Shown: positions 5,912-54,008, numbered from the stretch's first letter. The stretch is DNA of 64,000 nucleotides from an uncultured Pelagibacteraceae bacterium (GCA_902554325.1 CACDOH010000002.1:1-64000), one strand, 5' to 3'. Program-made: numbers and translations. Notes: generated by a model from the sequence alone, not told the origin.

Positions 5912-6471
5912 TGTGTGGGCGTTACGTGCTTTCAGATACAGAAGCAGTTAAAGAAAAATTTAAAACTAAAGTATCAGCATCATTTAATATTGCGCCATCA
6001 CAAGATGTTCTAGTACTTAAACCAAATCCTGAAATGATTAAGTGGTCTTATTCTCCAAAATGGAAAGAGGACATGAAACTTATTAATTGTCGCCATGAAA
6101 CGTTGCTTGAGAAGCCGTCTTTTAAAGGTTCCATGCGATGTGTTTTTGTTGCAAATGGATGGATTGAATGGCAAAGATTAAAAAACGAAAAAAAACCTTT
6201 TTTTCATTCTATAAAGACTGAACTCATTTATTTTGCTGGAATTTACAATTTAACAAGTGGTTGTGCGGTGGTAACATGTCAATCATCTCAACATATTGCT
6301 CAAGTTCATCATCGTCAGCCATTGTTGTTAGAAGAAAAACAGATAGGTGAATGGCTATCGGGCAAGCATCAAATAGAAAGAAAAAAAGATGATCAAGTTA
6401 ACTTTTATGAGATATCTAAACAAATAAATAGTCCAAAAAATAATAACAGTCAGTTGTTAGAACAAATTTAA
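5911..6471 (+). CDS. SOS response-associated peptidase (SRAP/YedK/HMCES family)
   Basis: N-terminal MCGRY with catalytic Cys2, FNIAPSQ, NGWIEWQ, HHRQPLLL. Confidence 0.85.
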   Translation: MCGRYVLSDTEAVKEKFKTKVSASFNIAPSQDVLVLKPNPEMIKWSYSPKWKEDMKLINCRHETLLEKPSFKGSMRCVFVANGWIEWQRLKNEKKPFFHSIKTELIYFAGIYNLTSGCAVVTCQSSQHIAQVHHRQPLLLEEKQIGEWLSGKHQIERKKDDQVNFYEISKQINSPKNNNSQLLEQI

Positions 6472-6487
6472 AATATATAATTCGTTC

Positions 6488-8092: not shown

Positions 8093-8101
8093 AATTTATT
8101 T

Positions 8102-8269
8102 ATGAAGAATGTACTGCAGATACTTGGAGTTTTTTTTATTGGTGCATTAATTGGTTTTATGCTCATGGGTTTTGGTTTGTCAGTTGATGTATCGATGATG
8201 GCAGGTACAGCTGTAATATTGGTTTTAGCTTATTTAGTAACTAAGCAAAATAACAAGGGGAAGAAATAA
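8102..8269 (+). CDS. small membrane protein (55 aa), not in ORF track
   Basis: ATG at 8102, MKNVLQILGVFFIGALIGFMLMGFGLSVDVSMMAGTAVILVLAYLVTKQNNKGKK*, packed between the 8092 stop and the 8270 start. Confidence 0.65.
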   Translation: MKNVLQILGVFFIGALIGFMLMGFGLSVDVSMMAGTAVILVLAYLVTKQNNKGKK

Positions 8270-9124
8270 ATGGCAACTATTCCAAGTGAGCAGATTAAAA
8301 CTAAAGAAATATTAGACTGGAAGGGTTTACATTTACTCAATTTTAAAACATCTTCTTGTTCACAAAAACTTCGAATTTACCTTAACTTAAAAAAAATCAG
8401 CTGGACTTCGCACAGTGTAAATCTCGCAACAGGAAAAAATTATACAGAATGGTTTTTAGGTATCAATCCTAAAGGGCTCATTCCAGTACTTGTGGATGAT
8501 GGGCATGTTGAAATTGAAAGCAATGACATACTAATGTATCTTGAAAAAAAATACCCTCAAAATCCTTTGTTCGACGAGCATGAAGAGGAAAATATGAATA
8601 CTCTTCTTAAAGATGAGGATGTTCTTCATGAAGATATTAGAAACATTGCTTATCGTTATATGTTTGGCGGTCTAGGCAAAAAGAGCTCTAAGGGACTTGA
8701 AGTATTCAAAAACTATAAATCTTCTAATTCTGAACTTGATAAACTTAAGATGAAAGAGGTCGAATTTTATGAAACCTACGACAAAGAAGGAATTACTGAT
8801 GACGCTGTAAAACAGTCATTGGTTAAATTTTGTGAGCGTTACGACAAATTTGAGGGCCTTCTAACTAAACAAAAATATTTAATGGGCGATAAGCTCTCGT
8901 TGCTAGACCTTGCATGGTTTATTTACACATATCGGCTCTATGTATCTGGATTTCCTTTTCGTAAGTTATATCCAAATGTATCAAATTGGTTTCATGATCT
9001 TTATTCACAAAATGAATTTTATAAGGAAGTAAACGACCCTTTGATTCTAAAATTAATTAGGCAGTATGCAAAAATAACAACAGCGCTTAATGGAAGATCA
9101 ATAAAGGCATTAATACCAAAATAA
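8270..9124 (+). CDS. glutathione S-transferase family protein
   Basis: Thioredoxin-like N-domain (SSCSQKLRIYLNLKKISW...NPKGLIPVLVDDGHVEIESNDILMYLEKKYP). Confidence 0.85.
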   Translation: MATIPSEQIKTKEILDWKGLHLLNFKTSSCSQKLRIYLNLKKISWTSHSVNLATGKNYTEWFLGINPKGLIPVLVDDGHVEIESNDILMYLEKKYPQNPLFDEHEEENMNTLLKDEDVLHEDIRNIAYRYMFGGLGKKSSKGLEVFKNYKSSNSELDKLKMKEVEFYETYDKEGITDDAVKQSLVKFCERYDKFEGLLTKQKYLMGDKLSLLDLAWFIYTYRLYVSGFPFRKLYPNVSNWFHDLYSQNEFYKEVNDPLILKLIRQYAKITTALNGRSIKALIPK

Positions 9125-10440
9125 TGAGCAAAGATCGTGACGTTAAACTTGAGGGATATTACAAATCCCATTGGCCAGTAGAATGTGGAGGTAACCGCAG
9201 ACAAAAAGCTGCCAATGGAAGATTGGATGTAAAAAATAAACAAGCACGTGTACAGAGTATTCGTAACGAAAAATGGAATGTTATGACCATTTTTCGAGAG
9301 CGCGAAGAACTTTTTCTTGGAGGCACTATGCCAAGTTTTACTGGTCCGCCTCCATTTGGTTGGGTTCAAAAAATTGATCCTCAAACTCTTGAAGTTATTA
9401 ATGAGACACCTCGACTTCCCTGTGGTGAGCATGTTTGGTGCGGAGCCATTGCTGCCCATCAAAACGGCAACATCATTAAAGTTAATGGCAATTATATGCA
9501 TAGTATTACTAATCAATGTGAAGTCGACATTGAAAAAAAGCTTCCAATTGACCAAGCACATAATGGGTTATTGGTCTTGTCTGATGGTTCTATTGTAACC
9601 AAAGACCTTCGCCTTGAGGGGCAGGGTAGGTCAACCATCACGCGACTGAACGATAAACTAGAGTTAATGCATGAACCTTTTTTATTACCTGAAGGTTCAA
9701 TGGGAAGGATTGCTTCAGATAAAAATGATGATGGTGAATTTATCTACATACCTGGAATAGAAAAAATATGGAAAATAAGAGTTGATGAAAAGCTTTCTGT
9801 GGATGGGAATTGGTCGCCAACCTATCGTTCAACCGATGATGATCAAGGCCTATCTTGGGACGGGTGTATTTCAGATGGATCCATGTGGCTAATGAATAAC
9901 GGCGATATAGATTCACTGAGAGCAATATACTCAACCCATCCTAATGGTAGGTTTAATAAAGCACCTAAGGAACTAAGTTGGAGAAGAAGCGCCCCTTGGA
10001 GTTGTAAGCAGAGATTGTATAAATTTGATCTCTATTCTAATGAATTTCAGTATATAGAGCCATTTGAAAAATCTGGAGGTGGTATAATAGCCCCACCAGT
10101 AAATATACCAGAACATAACATATGTGTTTGTTGGGATAGTATTAATGGGGGACTAGCAGGCATTGATACCACAGCAAAAAAAATTGATCTTTCCTGGAAA
10201 ATTGATGATATCCGTCCAACAATGCAGCCTGTTGTTTTTCCTGAAAGCAAAGAACTAGTTATTAATAGTTTTGAAGAAAATGATGATAAATTGGTTGTGA
10301 TTGATTTAACTAATGGCAATATTTTAGATAAAGTTTCTCTTAAGTCGCCGTTAGCAAATGGTATGTTTTTAACACCTGGTTTAAATAATGATATTTTTTA
10401 CTGCACAACAAGAACAATAGCCAGGGTGAGTTGGACGTAA
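9124..10440 (+). CDS. conserved hypothetical protein, beta-propeller-like
   Basis: 438-aa ORF with repeated beta-rich NG/DG units, overlaps the GST stop. Confidence 0.6.
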   Translation: MSKDRDVKLEGYYKSHWPVECGGNRRQKAANGRLDVKNKQARVQSIRNEKWNVMTIFREREELFLGGTMPSFTGPPPFGWVQKIDPQTLEVINETPRLPCGEHVWCGAIAAHQNGNIIKVNGNYMHSITNQCEVDIEKKLPIDQAHNGLLVLSDGSIVTKDLRLEGQGRSTITRLNDKLELMHEPFLLPEGSMGRIASDKNDDGEFIYIPGIEKIWKIRVDEKLSVDGNWSPTYRSTDDDQGLSWDGCISDGSMWLMNNGDIDSLRAIYSTHPNGRFNKAPKELSWRRSAPWSCKQRLYKFDLYSNEFQYIEPFEKSGGGIIAPPVNIPEHNICVCWDSINGGLAGIDTTAKKIDLSWKIDDIRPTMQPVVFPESKELVINSFEENDDKLVVIDLTNGNILDKVSLKSPLANGMFLTPGLNNDIFYCTTRTIARVSWT

Positions 10441-10517
10441 CATACATTTAATTTTTAGTTCTTTTCATTATGTATATGTTGGAGTTAATATAATCGTTTA
10501 ATTATAAAGGAGAAAAT

Positions 10518-10814
10518 ATGGAATTTTGCAATGCTGTGAGAGCTAAAGTCAAAGAAGGTTGTGAAGAAGAATATTTGGAGATCAATAGAGGTTTTGAAAA
10601 TTTACCTGGCCAAAAGATTAGTCGTCTTTTCAAAACAGGAGAAAGAACATATTGCTATATCGGCATATGGGAATCAGAAGAGGCAATTGCTGCTCAGAGA
10701 GATGCAATGATCGCAAATTTAGATAAGATGAGGCACGTCCTTGAAGAATTATCACCTGAATTAGGTGTAACTGATCCTGTTTCAGGTACAGTTGTTCTTG
10801 ATTATGATGGATAA
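10518..10814 (+). CDS. antibiotic biosynthesis monooxygenase-like (ABM / dimeric alpha-beta barrel) protein
   Basis: 98 aa, MEFCNAVRAKVKEGCEEEYLEINRGF...; upstream AAAGGAG RBS. Confidence 0.55.
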   Translation: MEFCNAVRAKVKEGCEEEYLEINRGFENLPGQKISRLFKTGERTYCYIGIWESEEAIAAQRDAMIANLDKMRHVLEELSPELGVTDPVSGTVVLDYDG

Positions 10815-11072
10815 ATCGGGTTAAGATCTTAATATGAATCTAGATCTACCTGAGTTGTTATTTGGCATTCCATTGCATTTAACACTTTTGTGTATTTCTA
10901 AATTATATGCAAATAGGTCATATGATGAAGCAGCAGGATATTTTAGTAAGGCGGGTAAAGTTTAAAAATTTATTACCTCCTGTTATTAAGCTAGTCATCA
11001 AAAGAAAATGCAATCTATGTTTCATTGACTTAAACAAAGCCACGAGAGCTTCTAAAACATATCATTAATAAT

Positions 11073-11861
11073 ATGAGCTTAACCGACGAAGGACACTACG
11101 GTCCCAAACAATTGAATATGCTTAAAACCATCTGGGGTGAAGGATTTTTATCACCAGGGGGCACTGATGAAATTGATCAAATTTTAAAAGGATTAGACTT
11201 AAAAGGCAAAAAAGTTTTGGACATTGGCTGCGGTACAGGAGGAGCAGTTTTTCATATGATAGAAAAATATGGTGCTAATGAAGCAATTGGAATAGATCCA
11301 GAACCATTAGTGATCGAAACTGCAAATGATTTAGCTATAAAGAAAGGCATATCTAATAAAGTGAAATTTATATGTACTAAGCCTGGTGAACATAATTTTG
11401 AAGATAAAAGCTTTCAGGTTGTTTTTAGCAAGGAAGCCTTTTTACATATTGTTGACAAAAAAAAATTACTCCAAGAGATAAATGATATCTTAGTTGATGA
11501 TGGAATTCTTTCTGTGGGAGACTGGATGAGGAATGATGATAATGAGCCATCAGAGCAGATGAAGGAGTATATTGCAGCGGAAGGTCTAGATATGTTCATG
11601 TGCTCACTCGAGAAGTATGAAAGTCTTTTAAAAGAAACAGGATTTAAAGTTCTAACACTAAATGATCGTAACAAATGGTACTTAGAAAAAGTTAAGACAG
11701 AAATATCAGATATAAAAGGCCCCCTTTATGATGAGGTGACAAGGCTAATCGGAAAAGAAGAAGCAGATGGAGCGCTTGAGATTTGGGAAAAATTACTTGG
11801 TGTAGTTGAAAAAGGAGAACATCGCCCTGGCAATTTTCAAGCCATAAAGATATCAAACTAA
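11073..11861 (+). CDS. SAM-dependent methyltransferase (phosphoethanolamine N-methyltransferase-like)
   Basis: GEGFLSPGGTDEIDQIL...VLDIGCGTGGAVFHM. Confidence 0.75.
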   Translation: MSLTDEGHYGPKQLNMLKTIWGEGFLSPGGTDEIDQILKGLDLKGKKVLDIGCGTGGAVFHMIEKYGANEAIGIDPEPLVIETANDLAIKKGISNKVKFICTKPGEHNFEDKSFQVVFSKEAFLHIVDKKKLLQEINDILVDDGILSVGDWMRNDDNEPSEQMKEYIAAEGLDMFMCSLEKYESLLKETGFKVLTLNDRNKWYLEKVKTEISDIKGPLYDEVTRLIGKEEADGALEIWEKLLGVVEKGEHRPGNFQAIKISN

Positions 11862-11862
11862 T

Positions 11863-12102
11863 ATGGATAATAAACTATCCCAGGCAGATACTGATCGTAT
11901 TATTGAAATGGCTTGGGAAGATCGAACAACTTTTATTGATATTAATAATCAATTTGGACTTAAAGAAAAAGAAGTGATAAAGATTATGAAAGATAATCTT
12001 AAACGTAATTCTTTTCTGAAATGGAGACAAAGAGTGAGGGGACGAAAAACAAAAATCAATCCAATTTCAGATCGATTTAAATCTTCTAATCAAAAAACAT
12101 AA
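11863..12102 (+). CDS. TIGR03643-like small conserved protein
   Basis: ADTDRIIEMAWEDRTTFIDINNQFGLKEKEVIKIMK pattern. Confidence 0.7.
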   Translation: MDNKLSQADTDRIIEMAWEDRTTFIDINNQFGLKEKEVIKIMKDNLKRNSFLKWRQRVRGRKTKINPISDRFKSSNQKT

Positions 12103-12106
12103 TAAT

Positions 12107-12484
12107 ATGAGCTCGGTACAAAATATTTCATCTGAAGACTGCTTTAAAAAATTAAATGAAGATCAGAATTCTTACCTCATTGATGTTAGAAGTCCAACTG
12201 AGTGGAACGTTGATGGCATTCCCGATGAAGATTCTTTTGAGGGTATTCTTTTTAAAATAGCTATAAGAAACGAGGAAGGAACTCAAAACCCAAATTTTAT
12301 TGAAGAATTTAACTCCCTTGAAATACCTAAGGACTCAAATATTTATTTTATTTGTAAATCAGGTGCTCGTTCTAATCTAGCTGCCAACATGATCGAGAAT
12401 GAAGGTTATAAAAGCCTATTTAATGTTGAAGATGGTTTTACTCTAGGGTGGAAGCCTAAAGGTCTCCCTTCATCGGAATATTAA
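12107..12484 (+). CDS. rhodanese-like sulfurtransferase
   Basis: IDVRSPTEW and ICKSGARS active-site Cys loop. Confidence 0.9.
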   Translation: MSSVQNISSEDCFKKLNEDQNSYLIDVRSPTEWNVDGIPDEDSFEGILFKIAIRNEEGTQNPNFIEEFNSLEIPKDSNIYFICKSGARSNLAANMIENEGYKSLFNVEDGFTLGWKPKGLPSSEY

Positions 12485-13080
12485 TCTGAGACTGAAACAA
12501 TTTTCTCGATCAGCTTATCCAAATCATAATCATTGTTAGCTAGGAATGACTGAAATTCTTCTCGCTGCGCAATCACAAGACTGATGCCTTCAATATTTAA
12601 ATCAATGATTTTTATCTTATTGTCCTTATTTAAAAGTCTCCACTTAAGATTAATCTTAAGTGTGTCAGTTCCTTCCCTAATAATATTACTTTCAACAATC
12701 ACGTATTTGCCAGCCTCTTGTGATCCGACTACATCAACTTTTTCACCTGCATACTGGTCAAGTTTATTAGCGTACGAGCTTACAAAGTAATCTTTGAATG
12801 CAATTAAATATGCTTCTTTTTGTTCATCTGAAGCATTTTTCCATGCTTTAGATAAAACAAATTTAGAAATTAAATTAAGATCAATCGATGACATCACTAA
12901 TTCCGTAAAACTTGAAGTTCTTTCAGTGTCTGAAAGTGAATTATTACTTAAGATAGATATAGCCGAATTCGCAAATGACGCTACAAACTTTTCCTCTTCT
13001 GCAAAATTAGATGCAAGAACTGTCAGATTGAAACCGCAGCAAAGAAAAAGTATATAAATATGAAATCTAATCCTAGTCAT
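12481..13080 (-). CDS. mlaC: MlaC/ABC-type phospholipid-binding protein
   Basis: Signal peptide plus Tol-Tol-Ttg2 pattern (LISKFVLSKAWKNASDEQKEAYLIAFKDYFVSSYANKL); adjacent to mlaA. Confidence 0.85.
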   Translation of the reverse strand: MTRIRFHIYILFLCCGFNLTVLASNFAEEEKFVASFANSAISILSNNSLSDTERTSSFTELVMSSIDLNLISKFVLSKAWKNASDEQKEAYLIAFKDYFVSSYANKLDQYAGEKVDVVGSQEAGKYVIVESNIIREGTDTLKINLKWRLLNKDNKIKIIDLNIEGISLVIAQREEFQSFLANNDYDLDKLIEKIVSVSD

Positions 13081-43807: not shown

Positions 43808-43823
43808 AGTGGGAGACTTCTGT
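43808..43823 (+). repeat. att direct repeat, left (AGTGGGAGACTTCTGT)
   Basis: Identical to 53673-53688. Confidence 0.88.
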
Positions 43824-43871
43824 GTCTCGTTTCACTAGTGAATATATTACCATATCTCAAAAATAAGTCGA

Positions 43872-43891
43872 AGTGCGAAGTAGTGCGAAGT
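43872..43891 (+). repeat. arm-type repeat pair, left: AGTGCGAAGT x2 in perfect tandem
   Basis: Direct reading; same 10-mer recurs three times inside the right end. Confidence 0.85.
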
Positions 43892-44003
43892 TTTAGATCA
43901 AATCTTGAATAAAAAGTACTTATGTTTCAGTCGGCAAATCGACTAGGAACATCATTTTAGAGATAAAAATAGCGATTGAGTGTACTGATATCAAATTGCC
44001 CAA

Positions 44004-44025
44004 AATTGCCCTATATGGGGCAATT
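44004..44025 (-). terminator. possible terminator hairpin AATTGCCC-tatatg-GGGCAATT
   Basis: 8-bp perfect stem at the 3' end of the minus-strand gene 44024-44833. Confidence 0.5.
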
Positions 44026-44833
44026 ATGGATTTTCGATTCTCTTGATTTTAGGGAATGAACCTCTACCCAGATTGATCAAAAGTAGTTTTGCGAATTGTT
44101 TATCTCTTTGCGTCTTTTTGATCTCAGATAGATAATCAGACCTTATCGTTCCAGTCGTTCTACTTCCAAGACCACCTTTTGCATTTTCTCTTTCAATTTT
44201 AGGTATTTCAAATCTCTTTGACATTATCTTTTGTACTTGAAAATGTAATTGAAGATTATCATAGTCAGTAGTCAGACTTAATCTGAATGTATGAAATATC
44301 CGTTTCATCAAATTATCATCAACTTGATCTAGTATTATTCTTGCACTCTTTCTTGGTTTACTTTTCTTCTCTTTTTCTGTGTACCAAGTCCTAATGTCAT
44401 CAAGAATACTTCGTATTGGGTAATCATCTGGAATATGAATAAAACTACCTCCATTTAAATTATCAGCCATCTCAGACAGGGTCGGTGAAAAGGTTGTAGA
44501 TGGTTCAATAAAGTGAGGTCTATATCTATCGAAAAATGCATTATTGAATTTGTTAATGTCTCTTGGCAAATTCTTGATATCTGGTCGTATGAATTTAGGT
44601 GATTTCGGTATCTGTTTTGTATTGATTAAATTCCACCATTGATGATTTGAAAATCCTAATTTGAATTTCTTTTGTCTGACCTCAACCGATTGACCCTCTA
44701 ATTCTTTGAGTACTTTACACCACACCGCAAACCAACGATAGACAGGTCGATCAACTGATATTCTGCTGAAGTCCTCTTTTCTCAACCTTCGTTGTTCAGG
44801 TGTTCTAACTGATATTCTTCTTTTCACAGACAT
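44024..44833 (-). CDS. hypothetical protein, element-encoded
   Basis: 269-aa ORF, basic N-terminus; no family recognised. Confidence 0.65.
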   Translation of the reverse strand: MSVKRRISVRTPEQRRLRKEDFSRISVDRPVYRWFAVWCKVLKELEGQSVEVRQKKFKLGFSNHQWWNLINTKQIPKSPKFIRPDIKNLPRDINKFNNAFFDRYRPHFIEPSTTFSPTLSEMADNLNGGSFIHIPDDYPIRSILDDIRTWYTEKEKKSKPRKSARIILDQVDDNLMKRIFHTFRLSLTTDYDNLQLHFQVQKIMSKRFEIPKIERENAKGGLGSRTTGTIRSDYLSEIKKTQRDKQFAKLLLINLGRGSFPKIKRIENP

Positions 44834-44850
44834 TGATGTCTCATTTTATA

Positions 44851-44880
44851 CATTATTTTGTGTATCACAATAGTGTTAAC
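44851..44880 (+). promoter_or_regulatory. shared promoter/operator motif copy 1: CATTATTTTGTGTATCACAATAGTGTTAAC
   Basis: 26/28 identical to the reverse complement of 53523-53550; between divergent genes at 44833 and 44928. Confidence 0.65.
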
Positions 44881-44927
44881 AATACCTTGCTGTGTGTTAC
44901 CACCTAAAACTCCCATAAAATAGAGAT

Positions 44928-45365
44928 ATGAAAAAAGCAAAGATGAAAGATTTCGATACGATTTGGTCGGAATTTAAGAAAAATAGAGATGTCTTTCCTC
45001 ATATCAGAACGGACTATCTCAAAAGGCAAATCAAAAACAATAATGTGATCTATTACGAGGGAGTAATTCTCATATTCGGTGAATACAAGAGAAGAGGTAC
45101 TTTGGGTGATTTTCAATACAATAAAGGTGATCTTATTATTCATCAAATCTTGAACTCTCGAAAGGGTAATGGAAATGCAAGAATAATAATGAATAGATTT
45201 ATTACAGCCAACGACACTCAAAGTCGGTCAATAATTCTGAGTGTTAGATCAGCAAATACACGAGCAAGAAGATTCTACGAGAAAATGGGAATGTCGGTTG
45301 TTGGAAATATCTCTTGGTCTAAAGGTACGATTGGAGGTAAGATTTATGGATATGAAATCGAATAA
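44928..45365 (+). CDS. GNAT-fold N-acetyltransferase
   Basis: Acetyl-CoA loop-like RKGNGNARIIMNRF and C-terminal SVRSANTRARRFYEKMGMSVVG. Confidence 0.85.
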   Translation: MKKAKMKDFDTIWSEFKKNRDVFPHIRTDYLKRQIKNNNVIYYEGVILIFGEYKRRGTLGDFQYNKGDLIIHQILNSRKGNGNARIIMNRFITANDTQSRSIILSVRSANTRARRFYEKMGMSVVGNISWSKGTIGGKIYGYEIE

Positions 45366-46128
45366 AGTAGAAATAACTAAAATCATAGAGGCAGACGCAA
45401 AAGGTCTTTACTCAACAAGTATGATGAAAATGCCGACTACTGTTAAAGGGTTCAAACAAGTAGTTATGCAGAACTTTAAACTTGCAGATGGTTTTGAAAA
45501 ATTATCTGGTGTTGGTTTCTATGAAATTGGAAAAGCACTTCTCAAGGCAAAAGAAGAACTTAAACACGATTTCGGTAATCTAAAGAAAGAACTTGCAAAA
45601 GAAGGTCTGCACGAAAAGAAACAAGAGAGATATATGATGGTTGCAAATAGTGATGTTGTAAAAGATTACTATAATAAATTACCACCTGAATTTACTACTT
45701 GGTTAAAGTTAACTCAACTTCAGAACAAGATGATCAGTCAAAATAAAAGTGATCAATTTGATGATAGTATGAAACAACTAATCAACCCAAAGATGGTCTG
45801 GAAAGATGTTTCAGATCATTTCAAACTTAATGTACCTAGTACTAAAAAAAGGAGAGATCATTATGAGACTCATTACATATCAGTCGACTGGTCTAAAAAG
45901 GTACATAAAAAGGATAAGAAATTAGTAATGCAACTTGAAAAGGACTTAAAACAATTATTAAAGAAATATAAATTTGCAACATTGAAAAGAACAACAAATG
46001 CAAGTGGTGGATATGTTTATGATCAAGTCATTGACTTTGTAAAAGATAAAGTCTTGGAAGATGATACTGTTTCTACTACCAAGAAAGTTAAGAGACCAAC
46101 CTATTCAAATAAAAAACGATCGTATTGA
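45346..46128 (+). CDS. DUF3102-like protein
   Basis: FYEIGKALLKAKEELKHDFGNLKKELAKEGLHEKKQERYMMVANS resembles the DUF3102 helix pattern; start trimmed to ATG 45346 overlapping the GNAT stop. Confidence 0.6.
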   Translation: MDMKSNKVEITKIIEADAKGLYSTSMMKMPTTVKGFKQVVMQNFKLADGFEKLSGVGFYEIGKALLKAKEELKHDFGNLKKELAKEGLHEKKQERYMMVANSDVVKDYYNKLPPEFTTWLKLTQLQNKMISQNKSDQFDDSMKQLINPKMVWKDVSDHFKLNVPSTKKRRDHYETHYISVDWSKKVHKKDKKLVMQLEKDLKQLLKKYKFATLKRTTNASGGYVYDQVIDFVKDKVLEDDTVSTTKKVKRPTYSNKKRSY

Positions 46129-46338
46129 GCCGTGCAGGGGTAAAGTCGACCGACTTCTGACACTAATTTTATACTCGAAAAAAAATTTGAGATAAATTCT
46201 ACCAATACCTTTTGAGTTGTATTGTATCTAAAAGATTACTTATGGAATGTTTTCAGTTTAAAGGGGGGGGGTACTTACATATTACTCACATTGAAAGTCC
46301 GTATCCTCGTGTATCCTCCGTACAAGAAATCCTCAATT

Positions 46339-47058
46339 TTAGATCAATCCGACCTGTTTATATCTATTCTTTAAATCTTTATCAGATACTGATTTGTCTG
46401 GTCGTTCCCATTCTCTCATTCGTTTTCTTACCCATTTAACTTCTGGTTTGAAATATAAGTTAATATGTTTGTGTTGAAATTGGACTATCTCTTCTCGAAG
46501 TATCAATTGGTAATCAGTAGGTAATAATTTAGTTAACTTCTTTCTCTCAAGAACATATCTGAATTTTCTACTAACTTTCCCCAGGGGGATTATCTTCTTA
46601 ACACCATCATCAATCCAATAATTCCAGTAATGATTTTGAAATCTTAATTCTGAATTACGACTATCACCCATCAGATTGACTGTTTTGAACTTCGTCAACT
46701 TTTGTGTTTGTAATAAATGATCGTGAGTGAATTTAAGATTTGCAATTATCTTACCACCAGTAAAGTCTTTGATGTCTCTCTTTTGTGGTGTGACTATCTG
46801 ATCAATAGTCGTTTTCGGTTTGTCAGAATCTATTTTCGCAGCCCCAGAAAGGAAGGTCTCTAGATTGGGAATAGGGAAATCAAACTTAATCGGTTTATCT
46901 AATTTGAATGTGATTAACAAATCTCTCTTCGGATTGATGTAATATTGATTTTCACCTTTAGTGAATTTGAATTGTACAACCTTTGCATAATTTGCCTCTG
47001 CACAATGCACAATACCCCATAATATCTCTTTAATATAATCTGATACTTCGTACTTCAT
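46339..47058 (-). CDS. hypothetical protein coupled to the methyltransferase gene
   Basis: 239-aa ORF; start overlaps the 47055-48104 stop by 4 bp. Confidence 0.7.
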   Translation of the reverse strand: MKYEVSDYIKEILWGIVHCAEANYAKVVQFKFTKGENQYYINPKRDLLITFKLDKPIKFDFPIPNLETFLSGAAKIDSDKPKTTIDQIVTPQKRDIKDFTGGKIIANLKFTHDHLLQTQKLTKFKTVNLMGDSRNSELRFQNHYWNYWIDDGVKKIIPLGKVSRKFRYVLERKKLTKLLPTDYQLILREEIVQFQHKHINLYFKPEVKWVRKRMREWERPDKSVSDKDLKNRYKQVGLI

Positions 47059-48104
47059 TTCTTAAATATAAAGATTGGTTCTACTTTTGAATCTGCTTGT
47101 TGTGATGATAACTTGTAATAGAAAGTATCTACTAATTTGAACCCAACTTCTTTTGCAAGATCAACTGTATCATCTTCAAAAGTCTCATAAACATTTCTTA
47201 CATTTGCAACATTTAACGCACAGAATTTATTTGGTTTAAGACCATAGTACATATTCTGAATTGTCTTTTTGAGAAACTTTTGTTTCCAATCTGTAAGTTT
47301 TGAAAACTTTAAATAAGATTGTGTACTTTCATTCGAGTACTTTTCGGTGTCAAAATAGGGTGGACTTGTAAATGCAAAATCTAATGAATTCTTATCTGGT
47401 CGATATTCTTCACTCCCCATTGTCAATAATTCGTGATTTCTAGCCGATGACTTGAATGTCTGTGACATCTCTTTAAGACCTTTCATTGTCTGTTTGTTTG
47501 GGTCAGTACCAATGTAATTAACATCTGCCTTTATACTTGCGAGTAAACGACCACCCCAACCACAACTCATATCCCAAACTGTATCTCCTTTATCACAAAA
47601 TACTTTGTACAACATTGATGCAGTAATCGGTCTGAAGTTAGAGACCATTTGTGAACCAGTGACTCTTCTTAAAATGCCCCTGATCTTTTCTTTATTCGTA
47701 TTTGATTGAGTCATTAAATCTTCCCAATTATCTTCCTTTGCAAAGAATACACCCTTAATCTTCTTCCGTATTCCGTTAGAGAACATCTCTTTACTTTTGA
47801 AAACATCATAGGGTGAAGTTGAGTCTTTGCATTGTACTTTAAATGCGTGAGGGTGATATGACCACGCAAGAGTTAAACCTCCCTTATGAAATGTGAAAAG
47901 TCTATTTGCAAAGTCTAATGACTTTCTATCATCTACTTTCAAGAATTCTTTAAACTTTTGATCTCTAAATTTCTTATCGGTTGGGTAATATGGAAACTTG
48001 TTCTTTTGCCAGTACTTTACAATCTTGTCGGTTCTCTTATCAATGATTACTTCATTAGTAATAGACTTGTTCTTAATATTACCTCTACTTGTTAATAAAC
48101 TCAT
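47055..48104 (-). CDS. DNA methyltransferase-like protein (N4C/N6A amino-MTase type)
   Basis: Motif I-like DTVWDMSCGWGGRLLAS and catalytic TSPPYFDTEKY. Confidence 0.8.
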   Translation of the reverse strand: MSLLTSRGNIKNKSITNEVIIDKRTDKIVKYWQKNKFPYYPTDKKFRDQKFKEFLKVDDRKSLDFANRLFTFHKGGLTLAWSYHPHAFKVQCKDSTSPYDVFKSKEMFSNGIRKKIKGVFFAKEDNWEDLMTQSNTNKEKIRGILRRVTGSQMVSNFRPITASMLYKVFCDKGDTVWDMSCGWGGRLLASIKADVNYIGTDPNKQTMKGLKEMSQTFKSSARNHELLTMGSEEYRPDKNSLDFAFTSPPYFDTEKYSNESTQSYLKFSKLTDWKQKFLKKTIQNMYYGLKPNKFCALNVANVRNVYETFEDDTVDLAKEVGFKLVDTFYYKLSSQQADSKVEPIFIFKK

Positions 48105-48130
48105 AATCAGCCGTCAGACACTGGTGTCGG

Positions 48131-48358
48131 TTATTCCATAAATGCATCTAGACCGTGTTGTTGGTCTATGATCTCTTTTACATTGGTGTTTATATAAATC
48201 TGATTTTGTATCCATTCTAACTTTGTATCGTACAAGGGTGTATCTTGCCCCTGCATCTTCAAATTCTCTAACATAAAGGTTAGATAGATGACTTTCTGTT
48301 CTGGTGTTTTGGTAGTCATTTCTCTAATCATTTTTCTTTTACTCGGTACTTCGATCAT
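48131..48358 (-). CDS. small hypothetical protein (75 aa)
   Basis: Start trimmed to ATG 48358, preceded by AAAGGAG RBS on the minus strand. Confidence 0.65.
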   Translation of the reverse strand: MIEVPSKRKMIREMTTKTPEQKVIYLTFMLENLKMQGQDTPLYDTKLEWIQNQIYINTNVKEIIDQQHGLDAFME

Positions 48359-48465
48359 TTTATCTCCTTTACTTAATAGGTATCTAACCAATTTATCAAC
48401 GAACCTACAAGGTCTATTTTAACACACAATAGTTCACTATCAATCGCACTTCACTGCCTCTGATC

Positions 48466-48533
48466 GTGATACACAAAATTTATCGTCTCGTATCACGGAT
48501 ATTTAAAATTTGAGGGTAGGTGTGATACACAAA
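48466..48533 (-). promoter_or_regulatory. shared operator motif copies 2 and 3 (GTGATACACAAA at 48466 and 48522) plus opposite half-site at 48490
   Basis: Lies in the divergent intergenic region between 48358(-) and 48617(+). Confidence 0.6.
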
Positions 48534-48616
48534 GTTGGAATAACGCTTTTGGCATTTTGGTAACTCTTTAAAATGTAGTAGTCGCATTTGCAACCTCTAC
48601 AAGAAAGGAGAAAACT

Positions 48617-49294
48617 ATGAAAACTCTAGGTTATTTAAGAGTAAGTCATCTTGAGTCTTTAAATGGTACAAGTTTAGAGACACAAGAGAAAAGAATAAAA
48701 AACTACTGCGAATTGCAAGAATTCAGTCTTGATGATGTAGTTCAAGAAGTCGTTTCAGGGGCAACTGAATTCAGAAAAAGAACAGCCCTAAAAGAGAAAG
48801 TCGATAAGATGAAACGAGGTGATCGTCTAGTCGTATCAAGATTAGATAGATTATCCAGATCAACTTTGCATACACTTCAATTTGTTAACGAATGTAAATT
48901 AAAAGGAATTGAAATTCATATAACTGATCTTGGTTGTGTGACTAATGGTGGTGTTGGTCAGATCGTCTTTAATGTCTTATCTTGTCTTGCAGAGACAGAA
49001 CGAATTAATATCTCAGAAAGAATAAAGGCAAGTAAACATTTCGCAAAGAAAGAACGAAAGTATCTTGGTGGTGCATTAGAGTTCGGTTATTCAAAAGATG
49101 ATAACGGTAAACTAATCCCAAATGAAAAAGAATTCGTCATTTTACAATCAATGATGAATTTAAGAACGCAGGGGTTAGGGTATAGAAAAATTGCCGAAGA
49201 AATACTAAAGAAGTTCGGTAGAAAAATACACTACACCCAAGTTCATAAAATCATCAATCGTGAACACAATCAAACATTGTTGGAGGTTGCATAA
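48617..49294 (+). CDS. serine recombinase / resolvase family protein
   Basis: YLRVS, SGATEFRKRTALKEKVDKMKRGDRLVVSRLDRLSRS, LAETERINISERI; GAAAGGAG RBS. Confidence 0.93.
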   Translation: MKTLGYLRVSHLESLNGTSLETQEKRIKNYCELQEFSLDDVVQEVVSGATEFRKRTALKEKVDKMKRGDRLVVSRLDRLSRSTLHTLQFVNECKLKGIEIHITDLGCVTNGGVGQIVFNVLSCLAETERINISERIKASKHFAKKERKYLGGALEFGYSKDDNGKLIPNEKEFVILQSMMNLRTQGLGYRKIAEEILKKFGRKIHYTQVHKIINREHNQTLLEVA

Positions 49295-49536
49295 TGTACA
49301 TCTGTTCTAACTGTAATATCGAATTAACCAAAGAAGACCTTGATGCGTGTGAAGTGGTTTCAATCGGTAAACTTTATTGTCAAGATTGTTTACTCAATAA
49401 GGAAAGAGAAATCTTCGTAGATGATAAAGGTCTCTTAACTCACACTTGGGATAAGTACGAAAAGTTTGTACTTGAGTGTTGGAAGAAGAGAATAATGGAA
49501 GATGATTTGAGGTATCTAGATGAATACATTGTCTAG
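49294..49536 (+). CDS. small zinc-ribbon-like protein
   Basis: CSNC...CQDC spacing. Confidence 0.65.
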   Translation: MYICSNCNIELTKEDLDACEVVSIGKLYCQDCLLNKEREIFVDDKGLLTHTWDKYEKFVLECWKKRIMEDDLRYLDEYIV

Positions 49537-49768
49537 AGTATTCGTCATCTTATTGTTAACGACATCAATGTCTTTTGCCGAAGGTAAATGTACTTACAAC
49601 ACAACAACTATCATTGAGAACGGACAAGTTATCTCAAAGAAAGAAATCAAAGTTTGTGATGAAGTACAGCCGATCGGGTCAGAGTCGTTCTTAACCAAAG
49701 AAGAGAAAATGCAAATGTTTGAAACAGGATTGATTCTTACATTTCTTTTCATCTTAGAAAATATGTAG
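49520..49768 (+). CDS. small exported protein
   Basis: Signal peptide MNTLSRVFVILLLTTSMSFAEG and C-terminal hydrophobic helix. Confidence 0.6.
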   Translation: MNTLSRVFVILLLTTSMSFAEGKCTYNTTTIIENGQVISKKEIKVCDEVQPIGSESFLTKEEKMQMFETGLILTFLFILENM

Positions 49769-49781
49769 AAAGGAGGTGAAT

Positions 49782-50222
49782 ATGAAAAATATAATAATAG
49801 TGTCTTGTTTATTATTTCTCGTTGGTTGTTCTCAAACGAAAATGGTCAAAGATGAAGTAATACAGTTGAAAGGAAACAATCAATTACTACAGGTCAATTA
49901 TGAAATATGTAATGACTATAAATCTAACTCTGCAAAAGTTTATGGTTGTTCTAGTTCATTCAGTAAAGACCTAGAGATATCTAAATCTAAGTCATTACTT
50001 AATGCGAAGTCTGAAGTAATTGATACCTACAATTCCTCATTCAACCAATCCCAAACAATGTTAAGTCAAGATAACAAGAAAGGTATTGTCCTTGATTATG
50101 ATAATAAAATTGTAAATCAGATTAGTGATACAGTTTTGAATTATAAAGTCGAGTACTCTAAAACATTTCAAGAGGCAAATGGTTTTAGAACATTTACTGT
50201 TATCTCAATGGACTTGATCTAA
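49782..50222 (+). CDS. lipoprotein of unknown function
   Basis: MKNIIIVSCLLFLVGCSQ lipobox; start trimmed from 49776; AGGAGGTG RBS. Confidence 0.75.
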   Translation: MKNIIIVSCLLFLVGCSQTKMVKDEVIQLKGNNQLLQVNYEICNDYKSNSAKVYGCSSSFSKDLEISKSKSLLNAKSEVIDTYNSSFNQSQTMLSQDNKKGIVLDYDNKIVNQISDTVLNYKVEYSKTFQEANGFRTFTVISMDLI

Positions 50223-50225
50223 AAA

Positions 50226-50276
50226 AAAGAACCCATAAGATAGGAAGAGGGTCTCTCAAAGTCTTATGGGTTCTTT
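50226..50276. terminator. strong hairpin: 15-bp perfect stem AAAGAACCCATAAGA...TCTTATGGGTTCTTT
   Basis: Perfect inverted repeat with 21-nt loop immediately after the lipoprotein stop. Confidence 0.8.
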
Positions 50277-50331
50277 ATACGAAACTTCACAGACAAGAAG
50301 TTAATCTGCAAATTGATATAGTTATTAATAT

Positions 50332-50487
50332 TTATGCGTGTCGTCTTAAATCTTCACTAATGAGTTGTTGTATTCTGGTAGATAGAGGTATTCCATAAAA
50401 CTTTGTTTGTCTTAATTCGTTATACCTCTCTAGTGTTATTGGATCGAGAGTGATCATATGTCTTTTCTTTTTAGGTGTGTGTTGCAT
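50332..50487 (-). CDS. 51-aa putative ribbon-helix-helix regulator, not in ORF track
   Basis: MQHTPKKKRHMITLDPITLERYNELRQTKFYGIPLSTRIQQLISEDLRRHA*; RBS AAGGAT upstream. Confidence 0.6.
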   Translation of the reverse strand: MQHTPKKKRHMITLDPITLERYNELRQTKFYGIPLSTRIQQLISEDLRRHA

Positions 50488-50523
50488 TAATTATCCTTTT
50501 CAGCCGTGCAGGGGCAAAGTCGG

Positions 50524-50823
50524 TTAAAATTGTCGTTTGTTTTTATTATCAATGTGTCTGTTTCTCGATTTGTAAAGGTTCGTATTTAAATTCTTTGTTG
50601 CGTGTCTTACTTCATCACTACTATTGAGTACTTGTCTATTAGTGTCATATTCAGATGTCCTAATTACTTTTGATTTTGTACCTATGTATTTGTCATATAA
50701 TCCAAATTGATTAGTTGGTTGTCTCATCACCATATCTGTACCAATATTTCTGGTACTCTTTTGATTTTCTTTTTGTTGTTTTAGATGTCTTGCTTTCATC
50801 GAATAATGGAATGCGTCATTCAT
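50524..50823 (-). CDS. hypothetical protein
   Basis: 99-aa ORF, 4-bp overlap with the upstream small ORF. Confidence 0.5.
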   Translation of the reverse strand: MNDAFHYSMKARHLKQQKENQKSTRNIGTDMVMRQPTNQFGLYDKYIGTKSKVIRTSEYDTNRQVLNSSDEVRHATKNLNTNLYKSRNRHIDNKNKRQF

Positions 50824-50936
50824 AATAGTTTCCTTATCTCTTCTAGTATTAAGAAAATCTGATCTAGTTTCTCTTGTGTACTTAATTTTCTTTTTGCTTC
50901 GGTTATCTTTTGTTTAATCTTATCTTTTGAATTCAT
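50820..50936 (-). CDS. 38-aa small protein
   Basis: MNSKDKIKQKITEAKRKLSTQEKLDQIFLILEEIRKLL*; 4-bp overlap with 50823. Confidence 0.4.
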   Translation of the reverse strand: MNSKDKIKQKITEAKRKLSTQEKLDQIFLILEEIRKLL

Positions 50937-51082
50937 ACTAATATTTATCTTTCTCAGCCGTTCTAGTGACTGTCGGTGTGTGGTTAGTTTCGTAAGACGA
51001 TTGAACACTTCGTGTTCAAGTATCTGTTGTTGGTTATCAGGTAGGATACCTTTACCCCTACCTTATCTCTTGCGGATTATCT

Positions 51083-51138
51083 GGAGGTGGACTTCCCCTC
51101 CAATCGAACTAACGATTTTGGGAGGGGAAACCACTTCC
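51083..51138. other. long imperfect hairpin in an ORF-poor region (possible structured RNA or DNA site)
   Basis: GGAGGTGG/CCACTTCC, TTCCCCTCC/GGAGGGGAA and AATCG/CGATT stack around an AACTAA loop. Confidence 0.7.
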
Positions 51139-51594
51139 GAGAGAACCCAAATTATTCATTCCGAATATTTGCTTTGCGTCTTTACCTAGTCGGTGGTCTA
51201 AGAAATCAACTCTTACGAGGTTGTGGGGCAAACTGATCCACAATTACTTTACTTCCATTGTCTGCGACTGCATTACTCAACACTTTCTTAGATTCTGTTG
51301 TGCAGATGATGACCTATTGTTTTTCTATAAAAGTATTTCAACAATTACTCTAAAAACAACGAGGGGTGTCATTTCTATTCATCAAACTTTACTTCGTTTT
51401 TACAAGTTTAAGTTATTCTACTTCTTGAAGATAGCGGTGATCGTGTAATGTCGATCAAATATTTCCTCCTATATTCCGATATAATTCTATCTTTAATTCA
51501 CTCGGATATGTGTTTTACAAGGTATTTAAATAATCAAATTTAAATGTTGTATTAGTATATATAAGGATAGAGTCTTCTACGGGTGGAATAATTA

Positions 51595-52842
51595 CTATTT
51601 TCTGGATTTAACTTTGTTAATTCGTTTTGCATAGTATTTCTCGTATTCTTCAATCACATTATCGTCATCAGTATCGTGGTCATAGTGTTTTGCGATCATA
51701 TCAGGTGATGTATTGAATTTCTTTGCGACTACATCTACTAAATTACCGTCACTCAAGTCTCTTTTTGTTTGAAGGTGTCGTATTGAAGTCATTGGTCTAC
51801 TCTTACCATTGAAGTAATATACATTAACTTCTTTTGCGACTCGCACAAATGCGTCTTGCACCCAGTTATTGATCTGATTGCGATCTCTTTTGTCATCTTT
51901 AAAAAAGAAATAGTCTTTTGGGGAGTAGGTTTGAAATCTATCTCGCACATAATCACCATATTTTGTCATAAAATACGGGTCGGTTTGATAACTGAATTCT
52001 TTTTGCGTCTTTGTCGTTCCAACTAAGACTTTGATAAATTCGATATCGTCTTTTGTGTATAATAATTTCATTTGATCAGCCCGAAGAGACACAGTCTCTG
52101 AACCATATCGAGTGGTTGAAGATATTATGAACTGTAAATAGACATATAATTCTAAGTACATTGGGTCATTATTGAGTTCATATATCTTTAATACTCTATT
52201 TGTTATCTTTTGAAGATCAGTCATTCGATATGCTGGTCGTGCATTACTTCTTCTATCAACTGGTGGATTCTTAATTGTTAAGTTTAACAATCCATCTGCA
52301 ACACCTTGTTTGCAAATTAATTGAATGATGTTCAAGTACTTTGTGATTGTACTACCTTTAAGTACTTTACCATCTTCATTACCTCTTGTTGTCCATCTAT
52401 CGACTAATTCATCAACAGACTTTTGAATCAGGTCTCTATCGTTCATCGGTACATTACCAAGAAAAGGTTTGATCTCTTTTCTGTATCTTCTTAATTCAGA
52501 TATACCTGTGTTTCTGATTTTCATTCCTCTATCAATCTCTTTCATTCTGTTCTTGAGTTTGTAGTGGTGAATTCTTTGATCAAATGCTTTTTCAGCCGTA
52601 TCATTGAAAGTCTGTGAAGTTCTCTTGATATCGTACTTATCAAAATCAAATGACTTCCAGAGTCTAATTGCCTCTTTCTTACCCTCTGTTTTAGAAGTAA
52701 TAGGTTTTAACGACTTACGAAATAACCCATTAGAACTATAAGAAGGTGATACATAGAAAGAAACTTGGATATATTTACTTCGTTCTTGTTTGTAAATCTT
52801 GAGACTACCACCAAGTTTCTTTTGCCAGATTGTTTTACTCAT
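51595..52842 (-). CDS. tyrosine recombinase / phage-type integrase
   Basis: TTRYGSETVSLRADQM (Arg I), SIRHLQTKRDL (R-H box), AKHYDH catalytic Tyr; near the att site. Confidence 0.88.
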   Translation of the reverse strand: MSKTIWQKKLGGSLKIYKQERSKYIQVSFYVSPSYSSNGLFRKSLKPITSKTEGKKEAIRLWKSFDFDKYDIKRTSQTFNDTAEKAFDQRIHHYKLKNRMKEIDRGMKIRNTGISELRRYRKEIKPFLGNVPMNDRDLIQKSVDELVDRWTTRGNEDGKVLKGSTITKYLNIIQLICKQGVADGLLNLTIKNPPVDRRSNARPAYRMTDLQKITNRVLKIYELNNDPMYLELYVYLQFIISSTTRYGSETVSLRADQMKLLYTKDDIEFIKVLVGTTKTQKEFSYQTDPYFMTKYGDYVRDRFQTYSPKDYFFFKDDKRDRNQINNWVQDAFVRVAKEVNVYYFNGKSRPMTSIRHLQTKRDLSDGNLVDVVAKKFNTSPDMIAKHYDHDTDDDNVIEEYEKYYAKRINKVKSRK

Positions 52843-53452
52843 ATATTTCGCCTCTTAAAAATGCGTCTATGACTAAATGAATTCTTTCTTCATCACCATT
52901 TACGACTGAATGAGGTGTAGTCACATCAACTGCATATAGATGGTTCTCTTTCATATTAATTGAAACTTCTTTATCACCATAGACAGTCATTATTGCGTCT
53001 GGGTTGGTTTTAATCGGTATATGAAATCTTCTTAGTGGACAATCTTTTATCAGAAAATCTTTATCAACTTTATCGGTATGTTTCTTTATGACTGCATTAG
53101 GTTTTACTTTTAGTAATCTAACTCTATCAAGATCACAAAAGAATTGTCGTTTAAAATTTTCAACGATACTTGTTATTGATCTTAAGATATTCATTTCATA
53201 AATGAATGTTGGTCTAGTCTGATTATTAGTTTCAGAATTATTACCTAAGACTTTTGGTTTAGATAAATCATTTGGGTCGTCACTATAACCTATTAATGAT
53301 AATCCTAACCAGTCACCAGACTTACAACATTTCGTAGTCACATTTGACCACTCTGGTTCTTGTAAATACTTCAATGATAATCTGTGATTAGATTTATAAT
53401 GGCCGAAAGACATCAGTGTCGGTGCATATTCTATCGTTTCGTGTGTAAACAT
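52835..53452 (-). CDS. aspartyl/asparaginyl beta-hydroxylase-like 2OG-Fe(II) oxygenase
   Basis: HTDK...RRFHIPIKTNPDAIMTVYGDKEVSINMKENHLYAVDVTTPHSVVNGDEERIHLVID; start trimmed to 53452; 8-bp overlap with integrase start. Confidence 0.75.
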   Translation of the reverse strand: MFTHETIEYAPTLMSFGHYKSNHRLSLKYLQEPEWSNVTTKCCKSGDWLGLSLIGYSDDPNDLSKPKVLGNNSETNNQTRPTFIYEMNILRSITSIVENFKRQFFCDLDRVRLLKVKPNAVIKKHTDKVDKDFLIKDCPLRRFHIPIKTNPDAIMTVYGDKEVSINMKENHLYAVDVTTPHSVVNGDEERIHLVIDAFLRGEIYE

Positions 53453-53522
53453 ATTACTCTCTTTCTTTTTGTTATAGGTAAAGGATACACGATTTTGAAT
53501 GGGTAGCACGATCATCATTAAT

Positions 53523-53553
53523 GTTAACAGTATCGTGATACACAAAATAAATG
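53523..53553 (-). promoter_or_regulatory. shared promoter/operator motif copy 4: GTTAACAGTATCGTGATACACAAAATAAATG
   Basis: 26/28 match to reverse complement of copy 1; upstream of the 53452 gene. Confidence 0.65.
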
Positions 53554-53568
53554 GTCATTTGAAGCAAA

Positions 53569-53619
53569 AGTGCGAAGTCTTTTGAAGGGGTCAAAAAAGT
53601 GCGAAGTGAAGTGCGAAGT
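53569..53619 (+). repeat. arm-type repeats, right: AGTGCGAAGT at 53569, 53598 and 53610
   Basis: Direct reading; plus a degenerate AGTGTGAATC near 53628. Confidence 0.85.
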
Positions 53620-53672
53620 GATTCTGAAGTGTGAATCTGATGAATTTGAGATGAGATACTAATTCTGAAATT

Positions 53673-53688
53673 AGTGGGAGACTTCTGT
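53673..53688 (+). repeat. att direct repeat, right (AGTGGGAGACTTCTGT), the 3' end of ssrA
   Basis: Identical to 43808-43823. Confidence 0.88.
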
Positions 53689-53907
53689 TGCCCGGTGCCT
53701 CCCGAACCGCGCTTGCCTAATTGTATTAAGCAGCGAGCGCTAATTTATTGTTAGCATTTAAAAGTTAGCCCGATAACGGCGGTACAATGCCGAGAGAAAA
53801 ACTTACCTTTAAACATTCGTCGATCCTATATCACCCCCTAAAATTGGTGGAGGTGCCGGGTACCGCCCCCGGGTCCGTAATGGGTATTACGTAAGCCGTT
53901 TATCTCT
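53674..53907 (-). ncRNA. ssrA: circularly permuted (two-piece, alphaproteobacterial type) tmRNA
   Basis: Minus strand: acceptor piece ...CCGGGGGCGGTACCCGGCACCTCCACCA, 6-nt spacer, coding piece GGGGGTG...; 7-bp acceptor stem GGGGGTG/CACCTCC; tag ORF GCTAACAATAAATTAGCGCTCGCTGCTTAA = ANNKLALAA* at 53755-53726; 5' limit approximate. Confidence 0.92.
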
Positions 53908-54008
53908 ATAGCTAGGATATCCCCAGCAATCTGAATATAGTTTGATATTGGATCTTTTTAAAGAGGCTATTCTTATTATAATATGCCATTATTATTTGAT
54001 TCACAAAA

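Follow-up and report, generated by a model that had tools for sequence, protein, structure and literature searches.

The permuted gene for transfer-messenger RNA (tmRNA) in GCA_902554325.1, a genome of the SAR11 order Pelagibacterales, is adjoined by a 9.9-kb stretch that carries recombinase genes (positions 43,808 to 53,688 of CACDOH010000002.1:1-64000, the 64,000 nucleotides analysed here and called the window). This locus raises the question of what kind of element the stretch represents and by which means it might travel. A preliminary description had regarded it as an integrative element in the tmRNA gene ssrA, flanked by a 16-bp repeat whose right copy coincides with the ssrA 3' end. Judged by comparison with related genomes, the 9.9-kb stretch is an integrated mobile island at the tmRNA end and a member of a little-described family of the SAR11 order, for which we use the term 'tmRNA islands'. 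On the evidence of its genes, we moderately favour the view that this family is integrase-driven, helper-dependent and phage-satellite-like, with packaging and a helper phage as presumed components.

The 16-bp sequence AGTGGGAGACTTCTGT is present in exactly two copies in the window, both on the same strand (Table 1), and the expected count for this pattern with up to two mismatches is 0.04. A chance repeat of 16 bp is in itself not rare in a 64-kb sequence; the present one is meaningful because its right copy forms the 3' end of the permuted tmRNA gene and because the empty site is present in relatives. The joined left and right flanks were matched over 515 of 515 bp at 97% in the congeners G017 and G018, and in many other congeners the tmRNA gene is followed by fumC within about 90 bp, or by the thioesterase gene and then fumC, which are the same neighbours as those to the left of the window island. 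The uninterrupted site that the preliminary description had suggested looking for is consequently at hand, as are the exact repeats and the tmRNA gene that it had proposed. Vertical conservation of the gene block in all relatives, which it had named as the opposing outcome, does not apply, since a search of 43 congeners gave no match to the window integrase; a search of the genome contigs with this integrase alone as the query was likewise negative. The locus displays the features of Islander-type tmRNA islands, namely a direct repeat at the flanks that coincides with part of the target gene, an intact integrase near one end (the second gene from the tmRNA end) and an empty site in relatives.

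The target is an alpha-type permuted tmRNA gene with the tag peptide ANNKLALAA according to ARAGORN. On folding, the terminal hairpin takes the form GGGAGGC...GUCUCCC, with the right core as its 3' strand and as part of its loop (ACAGAA). In Pelagibacteraceae tmRNAs the hairpin at that position reads GGGGC...GCCCC, and the islands found there use the corresponding sequence ACAGAACGCCCC as core. From the position of the core in the fold it follows that the integration point lies within the hairpin that terminates the permuted gene and not at the tRNA-like 3' end, which is used by islands in standard tmRNA genes, for example in Pseudomonas (PMC12595487). The earlier appeal to tmRNA 3' ends as common integrase targets is to be corrected in this respect. 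Inside both cores, repeats of the AGTGCGAAGT type may serve as arm-type sites like those of lambda-like integrases, to judge from their position and repetition, and the density of the motif CGAAGT/ACTTCG at element ends is about ten times that of the interiors when the window island is included in the count. The predicted attP junction of the window island is CTGAAATT-AGTGGGAGACTTCTGT-GTCTCGTTTCAC.

Homologues of the window integrase were detected in Pelagibacteraceae with 23-28% identity in the alignment, which assigns the window to the order Pelagibacterales. Two of them, in the genomes AH-324-N03 (L069) and AG-447-G05 (L071), belong to islands of 9.4 and 10.4 kb, respectively, that occupy the homologous tmRNA position, between the tmRNA gene and ppdK, and possess direct repeats (A)ACAGAACGCCCC of 12-13 bp as well as CGAAGT arms at both ends. 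These sister islands share with the window island the integrase, the serine recombinase, a Zn-ribbon protein, a secreted protein, a lipoprotein and, by position, a small gene of ribbon-helix-helix (RHH) type, and a W-rich protein is common to the window island and AG-447-G05. Thus, a conserved backbone of about five to six genes extends across two families in islands with total sizes of 9.4, 9.9 and 10.4 kb. Since this backbone characterises the island family, the 'envelope cassette' of the preliminary description is an island module; its genes are present as described, whereas their status as cargo is contradicted by the conservation of the block in both sister islands. A sibling integrase (21-25% identity) with a 334-aa neighbour of the AH-324-N03 type was additionally observed near a tRNA gene (2742-2823) at positions 404-2628 of L084 (G039:C5), so that the island family may use tRNA sites too. 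A freshwater member was encountered in a metagenome-assembled genome from Lake Baikal (L072, G125), where positions 7346-12494 contain a related integrase and serine recombinase, the unknown phage protein phrog_19197 (E 9e-112) and the contig end.

As the preliminary description had stated, no structural or transfer functions are recognisable: profile searches of the window island proteins against Pfam, PHROG and NCBIfam yielded no convincing match to capsid, terminase, portal, packaging, relaxase or type IV secretion system families, and AlpA, primase, YqaJ, RadC and Gp2-like families were likewise not found among these proteins. With an integrase, genes for regulation and replication and no full structural set, the gene content agrees with that of a phage satellite, where the replication gene of the window is the putative one in a clamp-like open reading frame (ORF). 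The lack of relaxase and secretion system matches in these searches speaks against assigning the island to integrative and conjugative elements or to integrative and mobilizable elements (IMEs).

Genes of T4-like replisomes stand beside the integrase in both sister islands. In AH-324-N03 the neighbour is a genuine sliding clamp of T4 type (phrog_223, 1.5e-41; RB69/T4 gp45 structures, 7.9e-13), and in AG-447-G05 it is a truncated gp44 clamp loader of T4 type, of which the initial two-thirds are present (phrog_168, 3.2e-53, positions 11-208 of 314). The family phrog_223 was found in one of 398 genomes of the order and is therefore not a host gene. In the window island, one ORF could be aligned by hhalign with a profile of the sister and cyanophage clamps, colinear over 165 columns and with a score of 31, compared with maxima of 21 among 60 shuffles and 15.8 among seven other island proteins. 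These values point, with moderate confidence, to a divergent sliding clamp, which remained below threshold when whole genomes were searched with the phrog_223 family. T4-like phages of SAR11 and OM43 encode a gp45-like clamp and a clamp loader (PMC9004378); a matching partner therefore exists at sea.

These replisome parts bear on the possibility that the island, carrying defence genes or cargo and not conjugative itself, is mobilised in the manner of an IME by a co-resident conjugative element or plasmid. Such elements combine an integrase with cargo and can be without recognisable transfer genes except oriT. Nevertheless, the profile searches detected no relaxase gene, the T4-like replisome parts indicate a phage partner, and we know of no conjugative systems in genomes of the SAR11 order, so that this origin must be regarded as highly improbable.

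Comparison of the islands indicates that they move. The sister islands of AG-447-G05 and AG-359-P21 (L093) are about 99.8% identical, with 99.4-100% in the windows between the cores and 97.0% in the last, boundary-containing window, whereas ppdK just outside the core is 83-84% identical in the two genomes; the whole element was therefore transferred recently between species. A similar trend was seen for AH-324-N03 and L091, with 93.5% in the main island part compared versus 75% outside. This transfer also bears on the idea that the island is what remains of a prophage, decayed or defective after loss of its structural genes; the integrase, the phage-type methyltransferase and the clamp homology would agree with such an origin. 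Three independent tmRNA islands of similar gene set and size are devoid of structural genes, and an intact copy has moved recently between species, so that the capsid-less state is no dead end. In view of this recurrence and movement of a similar gene set, the prophage explanation was rejected and is considered very unlikely.

Because the island has no transfer machinery of its own and its sisters carry T4-type replication parts, it probably travels by hitchhiking in viruses, and the earlier suggestion of a streamlined marine alphaproteobacterium carrying an island of phage-satellite character gains support from the same two observations and from the placement in the SAR11 order. In the proposed life cycle, the tyrosine integrase would recombine the core within the tmRNA terminal hairpin with the identical core on a circular island by means of the CGAAGT arms, and integration would restore the tmRNA. 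Upon phage infection, the island might be excised and then replicated and packaged with the help of a T4-like pelagiphage, whose replisome would be engaged by the island's own sliding clamp or, in the sister islands, by the clamp or the clamp loader fragment. Resolution of multimers may be the task of the serine recombinase and protection of island DNA that of the orphan methyltransferase, and the pair of secreted protein and lipoprotein could block competing phages. With respect to the helper, use of a phage tmRNA as attB was considered and is not supported, as the 3' part of the tmRNA of the T4-like methylophage Melnitz (L100) reads AACAGAAACATCCTCACC and does not contain the core; the SAR11 tmRNAs had no close phage match in this context. 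In Melnitz, the permuted tmRNA, a late-transcription coactivator and thyX lie close together (5985-8646), and the location of thyX resembles that in SAR11 hosts, where thyX adjoins the tmRNA gene.

Several observations weigh against the satellite interpretation. The clamp loader fragment of AG-447-G05 is not accompanied by a clamp, identity between the window clamp and the sister clamp amounts to only about 22%, the fold model of the window clamp is of low confidence (pLDDT 33), and the integrase and the lipoprotein had no match in phage records; furthermore, transduction by a phage other than T4-like ones or uptake of naked DNA may account for the movement. It is accordingly conceivable, although in our view unlikely, that the element is a passive mobile island without a satellite life cycle, spread by generalized transduction or DNA uptake, in which the clamp, the methyltransferase and other genes are phage-derived or defence cargo. 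The failure of the profile searches to detect a packaging, capsid-remodelling or primase gene, the variation of cargo between islands and the weak similarity of the window clamp agree with a passive island, but the backbone of about five to six genes kept across two families at similar size does not, and T4-type replisome genes on separate islands are hard to explain as random cargo. Returning to the satellite interpretation, the presence of T4-like replisome parts on capsid-less islands provides a directly testable idea of how satellites might capture a T4-like phage.

The tmRNA site is moreover occupied by smaller elements. A whole-genome pattern search detected the exact core 43 times in 44 genomes of the genus, compared with no hit for the reversed control, and all core matches examined are located at or adjoin the tmRNA gene. 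At least two cores are present at the tmRNA gene in seven congeners, with four in G019 and five in G035, the latter including copies with one and four mismatches. The tandem intervals between cores measure 0.3-1.5 kb and mostly lack an integrase and contain one gene each, encoding a trypsin-like protease, a DUF805, PEBP or beta-lactamase-like protein, or small membrane proteins or lipoproteins. The left arm of the mini-islands of G006 (829 bp) and G012 (306 bp) is closely as in the window island, whereas intervals in G008, G019, G033 and G035 carry a second arm type, ACTTCGTTG, which is the reverse complement of CAACGAAGT from AH-324-N03 and occurs at both ends of the mini-island of G033. Core-flanked remnants of 1.5-1.8 kb in the Pelagibacteraceae loci L073 and L076 contain an integrase fragment and one methyltransferase gene. 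On the simplest reading, full islands would decay by internal deletion, and derivatives retaining the core, sometimes with arm sites, would persist as mini-islands that can probably still be moved in trans. The arrays resemble an integron but were not classed as one, because both integrase and repeat are of the kind found in islands at tmRNA sites (no attC search was made). Two adjoining, homologous-looking beta-lactamase-like genes (436 and 437 aa) were noticed in G011 (L042, 16700-19525), the second of which is core-flanked at the tmRNA gene, and this pair appears to be a duplicated or twice-captured mini-island. In G006 (L050), the tmRNA-side core contains a 1-bp insertion (AGTGGGAGAACTTCTGT) that alters the terminal hairpin of the tmRNA. 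A more far-reaching proposal, to be taken as tentative, is that the satellite supplies a clamp or a truncated loader in order to seize or jam the replisome and the clamp-dependent late transcription of T4-like pelagiphages and leaves integrase-less mini-islands at the hairpin as a trans-mobilised array of gene cassettes, which would amount to an integron-like locus for gene capture made of attachment sites.

Table 1. Features of the tmRNA island and its target gene in the window
Feature	Position	Strand	Evidence or remarks
Distal att core (direct repeat)	43808..43823	+	14 bp past thioesterase stop codon; empty-site alignment
Putative arm-type integrase sites, CGAAGT x3 (AGTGCGAAGT repeats)	43869..43891	+	Left end
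W-rich island protein, 269 aa	44024..44833	-	Homologue L071:6002-6709, phmmer 3.7e-6
Operator-like palindrome TTTTGTGTATCACAA / GTGATACACAAAA	44855..44871	.	Between divergent genes; more copies at 48466, 48522, 53535
GNAT acetyltransferase-like	44928..45365	+	Pfam 8e-5, PHROG 5e-6, NCBIfam rimI 2e-7
260-aa protein	45346..46128	+	No family match in profile searches
T4-gp45-like sliding clamp, divergent (putative)	46339..47058	-	phrog_223 4.9e-5; hhalign
Orphan N6/N4 DNA methyltransferase (TSPPYF), phage-type	47055..48104	-	phrog_12517 1e-21; Vibrio phage 33% over 97%
86-aa protein	48131..48391	-	
Serine recombinase, resolvase/invertase type, backbone	48617..49294	+	PF00239 8e-29; L071 homologue 1.6e-77
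Zn-ribbon-like protein, 80 aa, backbone	49294..49536	+	Weak L071/L069 homology and synteny
Secreted protein, 82 aa, conserved Cys, backbone	49520..49768	+	L071 1.4e-11, L069 6e-11; 80 aa in sister islands
Lipoprotein, 148 aa, lipobox-like VGCS, backbone	49776..50222	+	L071 1.3e-17, L069 2.7e-17; 146 aa in sister islands
Terminator-like perfect hairpin, 15-bp arms	50226..50276	.	
RHH-like protein by pattern, 51 aa, candidate regulator	50332..50487	-	Place as L069:9002-9175, L071:8331-8510
99-aa protein	50524..50823	-	Position of L069:8568-8951 / L071:7884-8270; synteny only as basis
62-aa ORF	50820..51008	-	
Very stable hairpin	51079..51142	+	-41.3 kcal/mol, z -4.9
Tyrosine integrase, 415 aa	51595..52842	-	R, K, RH, Y motifs conserved in alignment; sister homologues
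Aspartyl/asparaginyl beta-hydroxylase-like	52835..53452	-	PF05118 3.4e-10; overlaps integrase start
Putative arm-type integrase sites, AGTGCGAAGT x3	53567..53619	+	Right end
tmRNA-side att core, terminal hairpin 3' strand of permuted tmRNA	53673..53688	+	
Intact permuted tmRNA gene (target)	53673..53966	-	RF01849, 237.7 bits, E 1e-67

The features of the window island are compiled in Table 1. Profile matches and motifs agree with the genes listed in the preliminary description (tyrosine integrase, serine recombinase, methyltransferase, GNAT and hydroxylase), to which the present analysis added the end arm repeats, the clamp-like gene, the small RHH-type gene, the sister islands and the mini-island arrays. 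The tyrosine integrase had no Pfam match and was assigned from its motifs and from homology to a sister integrase that matches phrog_1. The GNAT and beta-hydroxylase-like genes are probable cargo, to which the 260-aa protein may be added, and the lipoprotein is a candidate for an exclusion or envelope function; its weak matches to spanin, major-head and AbiEii models were judged to be signal-peptide or low-complexity noise. The 51-aa RHH-like protein gave no Pfam match, and its counterpart in AH-324-N03 gave a weak one (RHH_1, 0.022). The structure prediction of the W-rich protein is of low confidence (pLDDT 31). The GTGATACACAAAA palindromes upstream of divergent transcription units look like a shared operator. 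The very stable hairpin is situated next to the integrase gene, in a non-coding interval of 0.6 kb, and could represent a non-coding RNA or a replication or packaging signal; it had no Rfam match, and no counterpart was found in the sister islands. A short hairpin-like motif, AGCCGTGCAGGGGyAAAGTCG, is repeated intergenically at 46127-46148, at 50500-50522 and near 48107 and 50955.

Among known systems, the Pseudomonas tmRNA islands I23, I44 and I55, of which I55 is transduced by a jumbo phage (PMC12595487), resemble the window island and its relatives in their location at a tmRNA 3' end, short direct repeats, a tyrosine integrase, methyltransferase or defence cargo, the lack of transfer genes of their own and horizontal movement between divergent hosts. 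The Pseudomonas islands, however, measure 23-55 kb, contain AlpA, YqaJ, RadC and Gp2-like core genes and have their 14-bp core in the tRNA-like 3' end of tmRNA genes of the standard form, whereas the window island comprises about 10 kb, has no AlpA or YqaJ match and is integrated at a core that belongs to the terminal hairpin of a permuted tmRNA. The families that define the I55 type together with intY and a common 3'-end sequence (AlpA, with a YqaJ/RadC/Gp2-like core) were not found here, where a serine recombinase and lipoprotein block and T4-like replisome genes are present. The phage-inducible chromosomal minimalist islands (PICMIs) of Vibrionaceae are likewise small marine capsid-less islands with short repeats (PMC10803314). 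PICMIs are satellites of virulent phages of about 6 kb with 17-bp repeats and with int, alpA and a primase next to fis, whereas the window island shows no AlpA or primase match and occupies tmRNA instead of fis. Virion-encapsidated integrative mobile elements (VEIMEs; Eppley 2022) and tycheposons (Hackl 2023), proposed to be phage-parasitizing or cargo elements, are also marine integrative elements with tyrosine integrases, as far as the descriptions in citing papers extend (PMC11389934, PMC10187409). Neither islands in tmRNA genes nor marine satellites are new as such; the literature searched, in which VEIMEs and tycheposons are represented by citing papers, contained no description of the permuted-hairpin target, of this backbone, of the T4 replisome parts or of the mini-island arrays. 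Non-autonomous elements that are flanked by sites, lack a recombinase and are moved in trans include cis-mobilizable elements (CIMEs) and those resembling miniature inverted-repeat transposable elements (MITEs). Compared with CIMEs and with MITEs, which are covered in PMC11389934, the mini-islands are distinguished by their tandem arrangement at one tmRNA site, by their mostly single-gene cargo and by the putative arm-type integrase sites that several of them carry.

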